From positions 248,001-312,000 of the forward strand of contig JAHBXQ010000003.1 in NCBI GenBank assembly GCA_019636345.1: a DNA stretch of 64,000 nt, read 5' to 3'. Source of the DNA: Pirellulales bacterium. Its GTDB lineage: Bacteria > Planctomycetota > Planctomycetia > Pirellulales > Lacipirellulaceae. A model generated the notes under the pieces. It ran no database searches, was not told where the DNA came from, and worked only from the letters and a program-made list of their open reading frames with translations. This document shows positions 50,511 through 59,224 of this stretch, one piece after another. The position numbers and the translations under genes were made by a program. The number at the start of each line of letters is the position of its first letter. The first letter of the stretch is position 1.

Positions 50511-51437
50511 CGCCGCGCTCTCCGCTTCGAGCTCCGCCGGATTGCCGAACGAGGCTGCGTTGGTCGCTGCTACGTTGGTCGTCGCTGTGCCGATCGCCGT
50601 GCATGTCGCGAACGTTCGCGGCGAGTTGAAAACGCCGCACGCGAACTCGCGCCAAGCGTGCGCGCCAGAGCCGAACGAGTCAGAGCCGAACGAGTCAGTT
50701 CGGCCGCGCGCGAAGCGAAAAAGCGGGGAGGACATCCGAGTCGCGAGTTTCCTCGCCGACTGTCGATCCAGTCAGTCATCGCCCCCCGATAGCGCTTCGG
50801 CCCGCATGATTCGGACCGCTTGTACCGGCGTTTGCGAGCACGGTCGGCTCGCGTTGGAGGACGAATCGGCGCAACGGCGGCGCGAAAGTTTCATCGCAGC
50901 GTGCAGCGAAGGAGGGTGCATCGACTGATGCAAGCGCCCCGGCAGCTCGACCAACGTCCGCTCGCAAGACTTCGAGAGTCGAGCCGTTTCCAACGGCGTG
51001 CGCTCGCTCTGCCCTGCGACGCTGAAGAAAATCACAACGGCGACGGCTGCCGCGGTTGTGCAAAAGTAGTTACGCGAATCATCTGTTTCCAACTGGCGTC
51101 ATTTTGCGGAGTTGGCAGGAACTGTCAAGCAACTTTTTTCAAACGAGATGCGTTCCCCAATTGTTCTGGGGATTGCTGAAGCAGCACGACGAACGGCGTC
51201 GATTTTTCGCAAGAGAATTGCGCGGTTTTCGACGCGGCGGAAACCGCAGAGGATCACGGATTGCGCGGCGTCGATATGCGCCCGTCGACGTTCGTCCGCA
51301 GGGGGTCTCGCGGGGCGTTTGCGCGGTTATCATAAGGTTCCTCCCCGCCGCGGGGTCGTCGATACGGCGCTGCTAGCATGCGGCGTACCGATCGGAGTTC
51401 GCGTTGCCCCGTCGCTTTCGTCGCCGTCGATTCGCGC
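50511..51437. other. Gene-free gap of about 930 bases with a tandem repeat
   Basis: No convincing gene. It contains a 15-base unit CAGAGCCGAACGAGT exactly repeated twice (50666-50680 and 50681-50695) and two copies of CGTTGGTCG near 50559 and 50575. Plus-strand frames exist (one starts at 50542) but lack a credible ribosome-binding site or recognised sequence. The region looks like decayed or non-coding DNA. Confidence 0.5.
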
Positions 51438-53381
51438 ATGACTGCACTTCCGACTGATTCGTCGTTCGCTGGGTTGGCCGTTGCCGCATTCGAGAGTCGC
51501 CGCGCCGCCGATACGACCGGCATGATCGAGCGCTTCGGGGGTCGGGCGTTCGTCAGCCCGTCGATGCGCGAGCTGCCGTTGCCCGACGTCCGGCCGGTGG
51601 TCGAGTTCGCCCATCGATTGTTGGCGGGGCAGATCGACGCGGTCGTCTTTCTGACAGGCGTCGGCGCCCGGCAGATGATCGACGTCGTCGCCAAGCATGT
51701 CGGCCGACAGCGATTTCTCGACACCCTGTCGGACGTGAAGACGATCGTTCGCGGCCCGAAGCCGCTTGCAGCGCTCAAGGAGTGGGGGATCAAGCCGTCG
51801 GTCGTCGTCCCCGAACCGAACACCTGGCGCGAGGTGTTGGCGACGCTCGACGCCGAGCCGAGCCTGTCGCTGGCCAATATGCGGATTGCCGTGCAGGAAT
51901 ACGGCGTTCCGAACGTCAGCCTTGTCGCCGGCTTGGAAGCGCGCGGCGCCATCGTCGAATCGTTCCAAGTGTACATGTGGGACTTGCCCGAGGACGTCGA
52001 GCCGTTGCGCGCCAACGTGCGGCGGATCATCGCCGGGGAAATCGACGTCGCGATGTTCACCTCGGCGCAACAGGTGAAGCATCTGCTGCAGGCGGCCGGG
52101 GAGTCGGGATTGGAGGCGTCTCTGCGCGCGGCGCTCGCGCGCGTCGTCGTCGCCTCGGTGGGACCGACCACCAGCGAGATGCTCGCCGCGTGCAATCTGC
52201 CGGTCGACTTCGCCCCGTCGCATCCGAAGCTGGGCCATCTCGTCGCGGAGACCGCCCAGCGCGCCGAGGAGCTCGTGCGGCGCAAGCGGGCCCTGGCCGC
52301 GGTCGCCGTTCGTCCTGTCGCGGCGTCCTCCGCCGCCGGACCTGCGCCGGCGTGGCGCGACAGCCCGTTCCTGCGGGCGTGCCGCCGCGAACCGGTTCCG
52401 TACACCCCCGTCTGGCTCATGCGCCAAGCGGGCCGCTACATGGCCGAGTACCGCGCGGTCCGCGCGGGGCAGTCGTTCCTCGAACTCTGCAAGAACCCGC
52501 AGTTGTGCAGCGAGGTGATGTGCACCGCGGTCGAGAAGCTGGGGGTCGACGCGGCGATCATTTTCTCGGACTTGTTGCCGATCCTGGAGCCGATGGGATT
52601 GGACCTGGAGTTCGCCCCCGGCGACGGACCGCAAATACACAACCCCGTGCGCGAGTCGGCCGACGTCGATCGGTTCATGGAGTTGGAGAGCGTCGATGCG
52701 CTCCATTACGTGTTCGAGACCGTGGCGCAGACTCGCCGCGACTTGCCGGAGCAGATCCCGCTGATCGGCTTCGCGGGGGCGCCGTTCACGCTGGCCAGCT
52801 ACGCGATCGAAGGCGCCGGCAGCCGAAACTATCTCCATACCAAGACGCTCATGTACCGCGCGCCCGAGGCGTGGCGCGAACTGATGGGACGGCTGGCGCG
52901 ATCGATTGCTCGGTACCTCAACGCCCAGATCGCCGCCGGGGCGCAAGCCGTGCAGTTGTTCGACAGTTGGGTCGGCTGTCTGGGTCCCGACGACTATCGT
53001 ACGTACGTGCTGCCCCACGTGCGCGAGCTGGTGGCGCTGCTGACGCCCGGGACGCCGCTGATCCATTTCGGCACGGGCAACCCCGCGCTGTTGCCGCTGC
53101 AGGCCGAGGCGGGGGGCGACGTCGTGGGGCTCGACTGGCGCGTCGACTTAGCCGCGGGATGGGACGCCGTCGGCTGCGATCGGGCCGTGCAGGGGAATCT
53201 CGACCCGACGGTGCTCTTGGCCGACCGAGCGACGATCCGCACGCGCGTTCAACGCATCCTCGCCGCCGCGGCCGGCCGCCCGGGGCATATTTTCAACCTC
53301 GGCCACGGCGTGCTGCAGCAGACGCCTGTGGAGAACGCCCAAGCGGTGGTCGAGTTGGTGCATGAGTTGAGCGCACGGTGA
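51438..53381 (+). CDS. HemD-HemE fusion: uroporphyrinogen-III synthase plus uroporphyrinogen decarboxylase
   Basis: A 647-residue two-domain enzyme for consecutive steps of heme and siroheme synthesis. Residues about 10-265 match HemD (uroporphyrinogen-III synthase): AFESRRAADTTGMIERFGG, DAVVFLTGVGAR, and ASVGPTTSEMLAACNLPVDF at the end. A short Ala/Pro linker follows. Residues about 300-647 match HemE (uroporphyrinogen decarboxylase): WLMRQAGRYMAEYRAVR, AAIIFSDLLPILEPMG with the catalytic Asp region, FAGAPFTLASYAIEG, QLFDSWVG and FNLGHGVLQQTPVEN. There is no in-frame stop between them. The start is the ATG of MTALPTDSSF. The TGA overlaps the beginning of the folK reading region, so both are translated from one message. 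Confidence 0.92.
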   Translation: MTALPTDSSFAGLAVAAFESRRAADTTGMIERFGGRAFVSPSMRELPLPDVRPVVEFAHRLLAGQIDAVVFLTGVGARQMIDVVAKHVGRQRFLDTLSDVKTIVRGPKPLAALKEWGIKPSVVVPEPNTWREVLATLDAEPSLSLANMRIAVQEYGVPNVSLVAGLEARGAIVESFQVYMWDLPEDVEPLRANVRRIIAGEIDVAMFTSAQQVKHLLQAAGESGLEASLRAALARVVVASVGPTTSEMLAACNLPVDFAPSHPKLGHLVAETAQRAEELVRRKRALAAVAVRPVAASSAAGPAPAWRDSPFLRACRREPVPYTPVWLMRQAGRYMAEYRAVRAGQSFLELCKNPQLCSEVMCTAVEKLGVDAAIIFSDLLPILEPMGLDLEFAPGDGPQIHNPVRESADVDRFMELESVDALHYVFETVAQTRRDLPEQIPLIGFAGAPFTLASYAIEGAGSRNYLHTKTLMYRAPEAWRELMGRLARSIARYLNAQIAAGAQAVQLFDSWVGCLGPDDYRTYVLPHVRELVALLTPGTPLIHFGTGNPALLPLQAEAGGDVVGLDWRVDLAAGWDAVGCDRAVQGNLDPTVLLADRATIRTRVQRILAAAAGRPGHIFNLGHGVLQQTPVENAQAVVELVHELSAR

Positions 53382-54945: not shown

Positions 54946-55035
54946 ATGCGAATCGTCGTCGGCCGCGCGATCATCGGCCTCCTGATCCTGTTGCTCTGTC
55001 GTCCCATCGTTCCCTTGTCTCCCGCTTGCCGCTGA
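54946..55035 (+). CDS. 29-residue hydrophobic ORF overlapping the lgt start
   Basis: A short ORF, ATG to TGA, reading MRIVVGRAIIGLLILLLCRP then IVPLSPACR: one hydrophobic helix with flanking Arg residues. Its stop TGA (55033-55035) overlaps the lgt start ATG (55035-55037) in TGATG, the standard arrangement for translational coupling. It could be a leader peptide or tiny membrane protein, or a chance ORF. No Shine-Dalgarno sequence stands out. Confidence 0.35.
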   Translation: MRIVVGRAIIGLLILLLCRPIVPLSPACR

Positions 55036-56366
55036 TGTGCTCCGAGTTGTTCCGCATTCCGCTGTCCGTCAACGGCATGCCGCTGTTCGGCGTCGGCGTG
55101 TTTTTGTTGTTGTGGCTCGCTGCGACGGGGTGGTCGGCGTGGGGGGCGGTGCGGCAGTTCGGCGCCGGCGCGGGTCTCAAGGCCCACTTGCCGACGATGG
55201 CGCTGGGGGCCGCAGTGCTTGTCGGTCTGCCGCGGCTGTTTCCCGACGGGGTCCCGCTGCGCGGCTACGGCCTGCTGGTGGTGACGGGGATGGCCGCGGG
55301 GGTGTGGCTCGCCGTGCGTCGCGCCCGGCAGTGCGGACTTGACCCCGAGGAGATCTACGCCCTGGCGATGGTCATGTTCGTGGCGGGGATCGTCGGCGCG
55401 AGGCTGTTCTTTCTCATCGAGTACTGGAACGAGTCGATTCATCAACGCACCGCGACCGGCGCGACCGATTGGGGCGGCACGCTCAAAGCGGCCCTCAGCT
55501 TCACCGAGGGGGGGCTCGTGGTGTACGGCGCCCTGATCGGGGCGATGCTGGCGTTCGCGTGGCAGATGCGGCGCCGCAAGCTCCCCCTGCTGGCCATGGC
55601 CGATCTGATCGCCCCGGGGATGGCGATCGGGCTGGCGCTGGGGCGGATCGGTTGCTTGCTCAACGGCTGCTGTTACGGGGGCGAGTCGACCCTTCCCTGG
55701 GCGGTCACGTTTCCGCGCGAAAATGCGCCCCAACGGCTAAGTCCCCCGTACGCCGACCAGGCGCATCGCGGGCGGCTGTTCGGGTTGCGGCTTGAGGCGA
55801 CAGCCAAGTCGCCCGCCGGCGAGGACGCGACCGGGGCGCCGCGGGTTGCGCAGGTCGACGCCGACTCGCCGGCGGCGCATGCCGGGGTCAAGATCGGCGA
55901 CGAGTTGGCGATGGTCAACGACGAGCGCGTCGAGTCGCTCGCCGATGCGTGGGACGAGTTCTATCTGGCGATCATGGAGCGTCGGCCCGTCGAGCTGCGC
56001 ACCCGCGCGGGAGAGGTCCGGACGATCGCCGCGCTCGATCCCCCGCCGGCCCGCAGTCGGCCGATGCATCCCGTTCAGGTCTACAGCGCGATCAACGCGG
56101 CGCTCTTGGCTTGGGCGCTCTGGACCCACTTCCCGGTACGGCGCCGCGATGGCGAGACGATCGCGCTGACGATCACGCTCTACCCGATCGCTCGGTTCTG
56201 CGAGGAGGTCATTCGCATTGACGAGTCGGCCGTGTTCGGCACGGGGCTCAGCATCTCGCAGAACATCAGCCTGGGGATGCTGGTGCTGGCGGCCCTGCTG
56301 TGGCGCTGGCTCGATCGGCAGCCGGCGGGGCAGTGGGGCTTGAGAGTGCGGGAGGAGCAGGTCTGA
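55035..56366 (+). CDS. lgt: Prolipoprotein diacylglyceryl transferase with a PDZ-like insertion
   Basis: A 443-residue inner-membrane enzyme that moves a diacylglyceryl group from phosphatidylglycerol to the lipobox cysteine of prolipoproteins. Membrane helices cover about 17-215. The signature loop GRIGCLLNGCCYG is at 203-215, and MHPVQVYSAINA at 344-355 begins the last part. Between them, from about 250 to 335, is a soluble insert with AQVDADSPAAHAGVKIGDELAMVNDERV, the profile of a PDZ domain (carboxylate-binding region and G-D core). Normal Lgt is about 260-300 residues with a short loop here. The ATG start is preferred over a TTG nine bases earlier. It serves the window's lipoproteins. 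Confidence 0.9.
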   Translation: MCSELFRIPLSVNGMPLFGVGVFLLLWLAATGWSAWGAVRQFGAGAGLKAHLPTMALGAAVLVGLPRLFPDGVPLRGYGLLVVTGMAAGVWLAVRRARQCGLDPEEIYALAMVMFVAGIVGARLFFLIEYWNESIHQRTATGATDWGGTLKAALSFTEGGLVVYGALIGAMLAFAWQMRRRKLPLLAMADLIAPGMAIGLALGRIGCLLNGCCYGGESTLPWAVTFPRENAPQRLSPPYADQAHRGRLFGLRLEATAKSPAGEDATGAPRVAQVDADSPAAHAGVKIGDELAMVNDERVESLADAWDEFYLAIMERRPVELRTRAGEVRTIAALDPPPARSRPMHPVQVYSAINAALLAWALWTHFPVRRRDGETIALTITLYPIARFCEEVIRIDESAVFGTGLSISQNISLGMLVLAALLWRWLDRQPAGQWGLRVREEQV

Positions 56367-56545: not shown

Positions 56546-57124
56546 ATGAATCGCGAAGCTTCCCAGGCTGACGCCAGCACGACTCCGGACGACTGCCGGA
56601 CGCAGGTCGCCACTGCGCTGATCGAGCACGGCCGCTGGATCCGCACGGTGTTGGCGGCCCGGGGAGTCGAGCGGCAGGAGTTGGACGACCTGAGTGGCCG
56701 CGTCGCTGCTGCGGCGTTGGCCGGGGCCGATCGGCTGCAGGAGCCCGGCAAAGCAGGGCCGTGGCTCTATCGGATCGCGGTAGGGCAGGCCCTCGAGCAC
56801 CGTCGCCGGACGGGGCGCCGGCGCAAACTGCACGAACGATACGCGGCCAGCGGGCTGGCGGGAGAGGCGGCGCCCGATCCTGATCCGCTCGAGTGGCTGC
56901 TCGCCGCGGAACAGCGGCAATTGGTTCGCCGCGCGGTGGCAACCCTCGGCGGCCAGGACGCCGAGATGCTGCTGCTCAAGTACACCGAAGATTGGAGCTA
57001 TCGCGAGATTGCCGACCGCCTGGGACTGTCGGTCGCGGCGGTCGAGTCGCGGCTCCACCGAGCCCGCGGCCGGTTGCGCACGGCGTTGGCCCGCGTCGCC
57101 CCGGCGCTGGTTGCGCGCGAATGA
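56546..57124 (+). CDS. ECF-type RNA polymerase sigma factor
   Basis: A 192-residue sigma factor. Region 2 is shorter and more diverged than usual: RWIRTVLAARGVERQELDDLSGRVAAAALAGADRL, PGKAGPWLYRIAVGQALEHRRRTGRRRK. Region 4 is clear: RRAVATLGGQDAEMLLLKYTEDWSYREIADRLGLSVAAVESRLHRARGRLRTAL. The start is the ATG of MNREASQADAST. The stop overlaps the following gene by ATGA, so it is translated with its anti-sigma partner. The target promoters are not known. Confidence 0.88.
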   Translation: MNREASQADASTTPDDCRTQVATALIEHGRWIRTVLAARGVERQELDDLSGRVAAAALAGADRLQEPGKAGPWLYRIAVGQALEHRRRTGRRRKLHERYAASGLAGEAAPDPDPLEWLLAAEQRQLVRRAVATLGGQDAEMLLLKYTEDWSYREIADRLGLSVAAVESRLHRARGRLRTALARVAPALVARE

Positions 57125-57891
57125 GAGAGCCCCCCGCGCCGACGCCGGCGCAACCCCCAACGTCACGACCCCCCAACCCCTGCCGATTCCCGATGTCCTC
57201 CGCTTGCAACACCCCTGACGACGCCGTGTGGGATCGTCTCGTCGACGGCGAACTGCCGGACGACGAGCGGCGCGCCCTGATCGCCTCGCTCGACGATCGG
57301 CCCGACGGGTGGCGACGGTGTGCGATTGCGTTTCTGGAATCGCAAGCGCTGCGCGAAGGCCTCCGGGCGTACGTCGCCGTGCCGGCGACGGCGTTGGCCC
57401 CGGCGACGATTCCCCCGCCGGCGATCGACAAGCAACCCGCGGAACCCGCGGCGCCGAGCGAGTCCGTGCCGCGGCACGCGCTCAACTGGCTTGCCGTCGC
57501 GGCGACGGTGGCCGTGGCATTCGGGTTGGGCCGATTCGCCGGGCGGCCGGCGACCGAGGCGCCGAGCGAGCGGCTGGTCGCGATCCAGGAACCGGCTCCG
57601 AAGGTTGCGCCCGGCGTTGCGACGCCGCTCAATCCGCGCGACGCGGTGACGCTGGTGGTTCGCGACGCGTCGGGAACTCCGCAGCGGCTGCAAATTCCGC
57701 TGGTCGACGCCCCGGGCGCCCAGTGGCGTCCCGCCGGGGCGATGCGCGAGCAGCTTCACGATCACGGGCTCGACATGCAGGTGCGGCGGCGTTACGCCCC
57801 CCTGTTTTTTGAGAGCGGCGACCAGCTCGCTCCGATGGTCGTCCCGATCGACGACGCCGTCGTGACGCCGGTCCGTCGGGAGATCTACTGA
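57121..57891 (+). CDS. Anti-sigma factor-like membrane protein
   Basis: A 256-residue protein. The ATG overlaps the sigma stop in ATGA; a later ATG at 57193 (MSSACNTPDDAVW) is an alternative. A helical cytoplasmic part (WDRLVDGELPDDERRALIASLDDRPDGWRRCAIAFLE) has the spacing of a short anti-sigma domain without visible zinc ligands. A Pro/Ala linker and one membrane helix at about 120-140 (NWLAVAATVAVAFGLGRF) follow. The outer part has VTLVVRDASGTPQRLQIPL and ends RRRYAPLFFESGDQLAPMVVPIDDAVVTPV. It should hold the sigma factor at the membrane. Confidence 0.8.
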   Translation: MREPPAPTPAQPPTSRPPNPCRFPMSSACNTPDDAVWDRLVDGELPDDERRALIASLDDRPDGWRRCAIAFLESQALREGLRAYVAVPATALAPATIPPPAIDKQPAEPAAPSESVPRHALNWLAVAATVAVAFGLGRFAGRPATEAPSERLVAIQEPAPKVAPGVATPLNPRDAVTLVVRDASGTPQRLQIPLVDAPGAQWRPAGAMREQLHDHGLDMQVRRRYAPLFFESGDQLAPMVVPIDDAVVTPVRREIY

Positions 57892-58036
57892 GGCGAGATG
57901 CGAGGCGTAGATGTTCGATTGACGATGCGATTCAGCGAAGAGGCGGCGGCAATCTCGCGGACAATCGAACGTCGCGAGCCGACGGCGCTGTTCGCGACTC
58001 GTTCCCAGTTAAGTTTTCAAGAGCAGGAGGACTTCG

Positions 58037-59224
58037 ATGTTACGTTCCTGGTTTGCCCGCGGCGTGGATCAGATGTTGATTGTCGCGATGGTGTGCGGGT
58101 CGGGACTGTTGTTTCAGATGCAGCAGTCCGCGCTGGCTGACGAGGGCGAGTCGGTCGAGGGGCGGATCGTCGAGATCGCCCCGACCGATGCGGCGGCCCC
58201 CGCGAAACCCGCTCCTCCTGCGCCCCCGGCCGCGCCGACGGCTCCCGCACCGCCGCCGACCTATTGGATCGGCGTCGGCGGCGTTCCGATCACCGACGAA
58301 GCGCTCCGCACCCATCTGCAACTGGCGGCCGACACCGGCGCCGTGGTCGAGCAGATCATGCCCGGCAGTCCTGCCGAGAAGGCGGGACTGCGGAAGCACG
58401 ACGTCATCATCGCGGTGAACGGTCAGGCGGCCCACGGCATGCAGGAACTGATCGAAGCGGTCCGCACTGGCGCAGGCAAGCCGGTCGAGCTCAAGATCCT
58501 GCGGCTCGCTCAGGAGGCGACGATCACCGTGGCGCCCGAACAGCGCCCGGCCGACGCGATGATTCCGGTCCAACCGGCGGTCCCCGGAATGCCGCGCATC
58601 GATGCGCCGTTCGACGCCGACCAACTCAACGCGTTGCTGCAGCAGATGCTCCAGAATCAGCAGATTCCCGGACTGCGTCGCCTGGGGCCCGGGATGGTCA
58701 TGCCGCGGCAGGCGCTGGCGCTGCCCAACGGCGTGTCGGTCTCGATCCAGCGCCAAAACGATCAGCCGGCGCAGATTACGGTGAAGCGCGGCGACGACTC
58801 CTGGACTGTTTCCGAAGGGGACGCCGAGGCGATGGATCAATTGCCCCCCGACGTTCGCGGACTCGTCGAGCGGATGCTAGGTCAAAATGGCCAAGCGGGG
58901 TGGGGGGACGTGCTCAATTTCAATTTTGACGCGGGCGACATTTTCCCCGATGCCATGCGAGGCTTCGCCGACGAGGCCGCGGCTGAGCGCGCCAAGAACT
59001 TCGAACGACTCCAGCAGCAGGCCGTCAAGGCCGCCGAGGAGGCGCGCTTGCGAGCCGAACAGGCTCGCCAGCGGGCGCGTCGGCAATTGGACGACGGACG
59101 CGAGGAGATGCTCCAGCGACTCGAGGAAATGGAGCGCAGGCTCCACGACATGCAGGAGCGGCTTGGCGCCCCGGCCGAAGGGGAAGCGCCCCCGGCCCCG
59201 CAGGCCGACGACAAGACGACCTGA
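58037..59224 (+). CDS. Exported PDZ-domain protein with C-terminal coiled coil
   Basis: A 395-residue protein. A signal peptide (MLIVAMVCGSGLLFQMQQSALA) is followed by a Pro/Ala linker. A PDZ domain is at about 75-165: YWIGVGGVPITDEAL, VVEQIMPGSPAEKAGLRKHDVIIAVNG and QELIEAVRTGAGKPVELKIL. A Gln/Pro region follows, and then a long charged coiled coil at about 310-385 (AERAKNFERLQQQAVKAAEEARLRAEQARQRARRQL). There is no serine-protease domain, unlike DegP/DegS. The ATG has CAGGAGG upstream. It is the third gene of the sigma/anti-sigma operon and probably senses or scaffolds in the envelope. A 9-base inverted repeat (57913-57921, 57962-57970) precedes it. Confidence 0.82.
   Translation: MLRSWFARGVDQMLIVAMVCGSGLLFQMQQSALADEGESVEGRIVEIAPTDAAAPAKPAPPAPPAAPTAPAPPPTYWIGVGGVPITDEALRTHLQLAADTGAVVEQIMPGSPAEKAGLRKHDVIIAVNGQAAHGMQELIEAVRTGAGKPVELKILRLAQEATITVAPEQRPADAMIPVQPAVPGMPRIDAPFDADQLNALLQQMLQNQQIPGLRRLGPGMVMPRQALALPNGVSVSIQRQNDQPAQITVKRGDDSWTVSEGDAEAMDQLPPDVRGLVERMLGQNGQAGWGDVLNFNFDAGDIFPDAMRGFADEAAAERAKNFERLQQQAVKAAEEARLRAEQARQRARRQLDDGREEMLQRLEEMERRLHDMQERLGAPAEGEAPPAPQADDKTT

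Follow-up and report, generated by a model that had tools for sequence, protein, structure and literature searches.

The window analysed here (64,000 nucleotides, positions 248,001 to 312,000 of contig JAHBXQ010000003.1 from a member of the Pirellulales) carries a gene for a prolipoprotein diacylglyceryl transferase (Lgt), whose open reading frame starts with the ATG at 55035 and terminates with the stop codon ending at 56366, as given in the initial annotation, and encodes 443 amino acids. Residues are numbered from this ATG throughout; the query of the profile searches began at an upstream TTG and was three residues longer. The features of the gene are listed below, with equivalent E. coli residues taken from the alignment with the E. 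coli Lgt structure 5AZB.

55035..56366, + strand: lgt with PDZ insert, 443 amino acids (Pfam LGT, E 4.9e-52; AlphaFold2 model versus 5AZB, Z 21.2)
55068..55178, + strand: N-terminal TM1-like repeat, residues 12-48, in an extra transmembrane pair (HHalign versus canonical TM1, probability 95%, E 3e-08; model helices 22-42 and 44-68)
55251..55364, + strand: canonical TM1 region, residues 73-110, with Y78 corresponding to E. coli Y26 (5AZB alignment)
55509..55529, + strand: GGLVVYG, residues 159-165, corresponding to the HGGL region, with Y164 at the position of H103 (5AZB alignment)
55641..55682, + strand: Lgt signature motif GRIGCLLNGCCYGG, residues 203-216, near-invariant in 52 relatives, with R204 = R143, C207 = N146, C212 = E151 and G215 = G154 (5AZB alignment)
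55740..55772, + strand: head helix SPPYADQAHRG, residues 236-246, directly N-terminal of the insert (comparison of head segments; model helix 237-244)
55773..56048, + strand: PDZ insert, residues 247-338 (PDZ_6 and PDZ_2 above cut-off; genome-derived HMM, 37.6 bits; structural matches, Z 10-11.6)
55773..55793, + strand: putative carboxylate-binding loop RLFGLRL, residues 247-253, of X-phi-G-phi type (column conservation)
56055..56084, + strand: SRPMHPVQVY, residues 341-350, return into the Lgt body at the start of TM5 (aligned with E. coli LPRHPSQLY)
56193..56216, + strand: R387, E391 and R394, corresponding to R239, E243 and R246 (5AZB alignment; invariant in the alignments of relatives)

The protein matched the Pfam family LGT (PF01790) over nearly its full length with 177.1 bits (cut-off 24.9); the Lgt equivalog model of NCBIfam, TIGR00544, yielded 102.1 bits versus a cut-off of 118.9, probably because the PDZ insert divides the match. 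The AlphaFold2 model (alignment of 52 sequences; mean pLDDT 92.6, pTM 0.87) superposed on 5AZB over 260 residues with an rmsd of 3.3 (VIA-align). The gene panC directly precedes lgt in 57 of 80 relatives, which argues for a vertically inherited, orthologous main Lgt. A single LspA is encoded in the genome, as is a second, short and divergent LGT-like gene (L002, contig C5, 183965-184621; GRLGCFIGGCCYG), which is devoid of the insert and adjoins a gene whose product resembles radical SAM proteins; several relatives possessed paralogues of this kind. Judged from sequence and model, the PDZ-bearing protein is the main phosphatidylglycerol:prolipoprotein diacylglyceryl transferase of this genome, an activity that we infer.

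The residues Y26, R143, G154, R239, E243 and R246, documented to be essential in E. coli Lgt (PMC13251419, PMC4728403), are matched by Y78, R204, G215, R387, E391 and R394, all of which are invariant in the 52-sequence alignment. The positions of H103, N146 and E151 are occupied by Y164, C207 and C212, respectively: Substitutions of H103 by Tyr, Trp or Phe and of N146 by Cys have been reported for other Lgts, and the Leptospira enzyme with N146C works partly in E. coli (PMC13251419); the H103Y variant of E. coli Lgt is inactive (PMC4728403). The two cysteines in the signature motif are accompanied by a third, adjacent one, all three being invariant in the 52 aligned sequences; a disulfide or metal site is possible on the basis of this pattern.

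At the N-terminus, residues 12-48 resemble the TM1 unit that follows (GMPLFGVGVFLLLW... versus GVPLRGYGLLVVTG...); none of 2,400 shuffles reached the median score of this comparison, and the model places both extra helices ahead of the canonical TM1. The N-terminus of the protein therefore looks like a duplicated TM1 unit, a feature found in Pirellulales and Planctomycetales and absent from Gemmatales.

The insert itself was located where the initial annotation had placed it, i.e. between the GRIGC...NGCCYG motif (residues 203-215, end of TM4) and the MHPVQVY segment (residues 344-350, with the HPxQ at the start of TM5). It takes the place of approximately 24 head residues of the E. coli enzyme (chain about 169 to about 194 of 5AZB); in the sequence alignment the swapped E. 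coli segment is bordered by FP after the signature motif and by LPRHPSQ. The corresponding loop of 5AZB belongs to its periplasmic head, which places the domain on the periplasmic side, in agreement with the outer-side location proposed earlier. The preceding head helix (residues 236-246) was also found in relatives without a PDZ domain.

The PDZ-like profile noted for the insert was substantiated by scores above the Pfam cut-offs for PDZ_6 (1.7e-08, 34.5 bits, cut-off 27) and PDZ_2 (3.3e-06, 27.7 bits, cut-off 27), with the classic PDZ family (PF00595) remaining narrowly below its threshold (3.1e-04, 21.5 bits, cut-off 23.2). An HMM constructed exclusively with further PDZ proteins encoded in this genome assigned 37.6 bits to the insert, the maximum among 3,360 shuffled segments being 10.2 bits; a chance likeness to PDZ is ruled out by this difference. 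In the AlphaFold2 model the insert is predicted with a pLDDT of mostly about 97 (lower in the loop around residues 261-270), and the structure prediction proposed as a check returned a PDZ fold: Residues of about 243-345 matched the PDZ domains of HtrA, DegQ, DegP and CtpB with Z values of 10-11.6. Profile and predicted fold thus confirm residues of about 247-338 as a genuine HtrA-type PDZ domain. That the segment could be a loop common to all Lgt proteins is ruled out by relatives with short heads, in which the PDZ loop pattern was absent (0 of 29).

The distribution of the insert was followed in relatives collected by an alignment-based scan of genome contigs, with sampling within the Planctomycetota and with the order names of some genomes extended by tree position. 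In the family of the window, 35 of 44 genomes possessed one unbroken match across the insert, and four genomes of one genus had an open gene without it (head segment of 42-51 residues). Within the Pirellulales the insert was present in nearly all genomes sampled and ranged from a clear PDZ domain to a barely recognisable one; many inserts of Pirellulaceae were hardly recognisable as PDZ by the genome-derived HMM, and Botrimarina retains a mini-PDZ, in which the middle is gone and loop, strands and helix are kept (confidently folded in the model, with a weak match to PDZ structures, Z about 5). The Planctomycetales exhibited a short loop (37-residue segment, 39 from the motif), the Gemmatales a strong PDZ domain at the identical site (PDZ_6 up to 49 bits), and the Phycisphaerae an unrelated, charged and probably helical insert at the same site (head segment of about 100-165 residues in the Phycisphaerae-type Lgt of L114, L125, L132, L134 and L050). 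In a tree of the enzyme core calculated without the head (in which row L175, marked as short, is in fact a PDZ carrier), the short forms L167-L169, L170 and the L109-L139 clade, the last nested in Pirellulales, were placed among insert bearers. In consequence, the domain was cleanly lost at least three times within the Pirellulales; Lgt works without it, and it is dispensable and accessory.

The Gemmatales PDZ forms stood apart from those of Pirellulales in the core tree, the deep branches of which are weakly supported; the Pirellulales HMM assigned 31-45 bits to the Gemmatales domains versus 12-42 bits to unrelated PDZ domains of the window's genome, i.e. the ranges overlap. The Gemmatales domain was perhaps gained separately. 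Two irregular copies were observed besides. Genome G386, from another family of the phylum (f76) whose remaining members match poorly, contains a Gemmatales-like Lgt that carries a PDZ domain (L051/L183) and may represent a transfer or a contamination. The lgt copy L171 (draft genome G024, contig C325) is interrupted within the PDZ insert, so that it occupies two frames, and it shows a repeated segment, SSTAKPSQG; this reads as a frameshift or an assembly error.

The dN/dS ratio of the insert was mostly between 0.04 and 0.4 and below 1 wherever computable among 23 pairs of relatives (highest value 0.71, for the window and its nearest relative) and usually exceeded that of the enzyme core by a factor of 2-6; these values are rough, several of the pairs being close to saturation at synonymous positions. 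Where it is kept, the insert is under purifying selection. These ratios bear on the possibility that the domain is a neutral passenger, tolerated in a permissive loop, drifting and in the course of being lost: The repeated losses, the degeneration, the fast evolution and the split copy L171 would fit such a passenger, which is nevertheless very improbable in view of ratios below 1 in all measurable pairs (mostly below 0.4), the order-wide retention of the domain and the invariant loop glycine. The faster evolution relative to the core suggests that any ligand contact would be loosely constrained.

All 44 clear PDZ inserts possessed the glycine of the X-phi-G-phi loop, G250, and had hydrophobic residues at positions 248, 251 and 253; A280 and S278 of the structural core were the remaining highly conserved sites. 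Of the 93 Pirellulales inserts, among them the degenerate ones, 85 retained the loop pattern (LFGL in the window, residues 248-251). By sequence, the peptide-carboxylate loop is among the best-conserved parts of the domain; its conservation could be explained by packing, since the loop sits at the splice point between insert and enzyme. The main rival to a peptide-binding function is a steric one, according to which the PDZ domain would cover the cavity mouth as a stiff cap or spacer and either stabilise the head or keep out polypeptides that are folded or bulky, with no need for peptides to be bound sequence-specifically. The high evolutionary rate of the insert compared with that of the core, the many Pirellulaceae inserts that are barely PDZ and the mini-PDZ of Botrimarina are consistent with a cap, and the use of this loop for an unrelated insert in Phycisphaerae points to a possible effect of mere size. 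However, a spacer has no need of the X-phi-G-phi loop that persists in most degenerate inserts, and bulk alone hardly accounts for PDZ domains in Pirellulales as well as Gemmatales; we regard the cap as a possible but rather unlikely explanation.

Downstream of lgt (about 56549-59224) lie genes for an ECF-like sigma factor and a putative anti-sigma factor, together with one for a secreted PDZ protein that contains the best PDZ_6 match of the genome; the trio recurred at 4 of the 80 loci, all close to the family of the window, and the PDZ protein in 7 of 80. Elsewhere in the window (51378-53381), a single frame combines what we take, from reading its sequence, to be a uroporphyrinogen-III synthase-like part and a uroporphyrinogen decarboxylase (HemE), with matches at 7 of the 80 related loci. 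C-termini are the classic ligands of HtrA-type PDZ domains, and the domain might accordingly serve as a scaffold or regulator that binds the C-terminus of an envelope protein (translocon, chaperone or stress sensor) and either co-localises lipidation with export or couples it to envelope stress, a role with which the sigma factor, putative anti-sigma factor and secreted PDZ protein following lgt in close relatives would agree. Yet this neighbourhood was found only at loci close to the family of the window, in contrast to an Lgt insert that extends through the order, and the C-terminal tails of LspA and similar partners are thought to face the cytoplasm; such a scaffold is unlikely.

The reading we prefer, with a probability of about 0.5, is that of a main Lgt with an HtrA-type PDZ domain in its head that docks or filters the preprolipoprotein or a partner protein. 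The domain would hang near the point where the active-site cavity opens to the periplasm and bind extended or unfolded polypeptide, the ligand most likely being the juxtamembrane linker of the preprolipoprotein or a partner delivering it; it would thereby raise the local substrate concentration or, as proposed for the PDZ domains of RseP, filter the polypeptides that reach the lipobox site, as an accessory to catalysis that takes no part in it. Substrate docking is suggested by two published observations: Domain swaps in E. coli Lgt indicated that the head contributes to function and protein-substrate specificity, whereupon the authors suggested that the preprolipoprotein linker touches the head (PMC13251419), and the periplasmic PDZ domains of RseP have been described as size-exclusion filters (PMC10024687). 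The selection or holding of prolipoproteins suggested in the initial annotation is a hypothesis that agrees with this role of the head and also with the near-invariant X-phi-G-phi loop and the purifying selection on the insert. A further-reaching version, in which Pirellulales and Gemmatales independently made Lgt a selective lipidation gate, so that the PDZ domain and not the lipobox alone would pick the lipoproteins by recognising certain tails or linkers of the substrates, or else a partner in stress signalling, is speculative and rather improbable.

The committed step of lipoprotein synthesis is the reaction performed by Lgt, which has been proposed as a target for antibiotics. Natural insertion, trimming and deletion of a PDZ domain in the very head implicated by the swaps open a direct route to testing the role of the head, and close relatives with and without the domain are available for comparing head function. 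A description of an Lgt-PDZ protein or of a planctomycete Lgt was not found in the literature searched, and subscription journals or domain databases could hold one; neither PDZ domains nor planctomycetes are mentioned in a study on the diversity of Lgt from 2026 (PMC13251419).

Compared with E. coli Lgt (5AZB/5AZC), the catalytic body superposes, the counterparts of Y26, R143, G154, R239, E243 and R246 are conserved and the head site is the same periplasmic one; the window Lgt differs by a PDZ domain of about 90 residues in place of a head segment of about 24, by the extra N-terminal transmembrane pair, by Tyr at H103 and by Cys at N146 and E151. The other Lgt proteins of Planctomycetota are orthologous and linked to panC, but those of Planctomycetales have a short loop and those of Phycisphaerae a different insert; Gemmatales Lgt shares the PDZ domain at the same site without the TM1 duplication. 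With the PDZ domains of HtrA, DegP, DegQ, DegS and CtpB the predicted domain shares the fold (residues 243-345), the GLGF-like carboxylate loop and the core motif SPA..AG..GD..ING; theirs are attached to proteases, in contrast to the domain predicted here inside a multi-pass lipid transferase. A parallel in plan is provided by RseP and other site-2 proteases, membrane enzymes with periplasmic-side PDZ domains described as substrate filters (PMC10024687), domains that also match the family profile by sequence; the catalytic fold and chemistry of these proteases are unrelated and their PDZ domains arranged in tandem, so that the likeness concerns the plan and not the ancestry. In a published catalogue, 7,852 microbial PDZ proteins, drawn from only five genomes as far as planctomycetes are concerned, were assigned to 12 families, mostly of proteases, with 7% of the proteins unclassified and no LGT named in its text (PMC6411480); with the protein described here, a lipid transferase would join this mostly protease-linked assembly.
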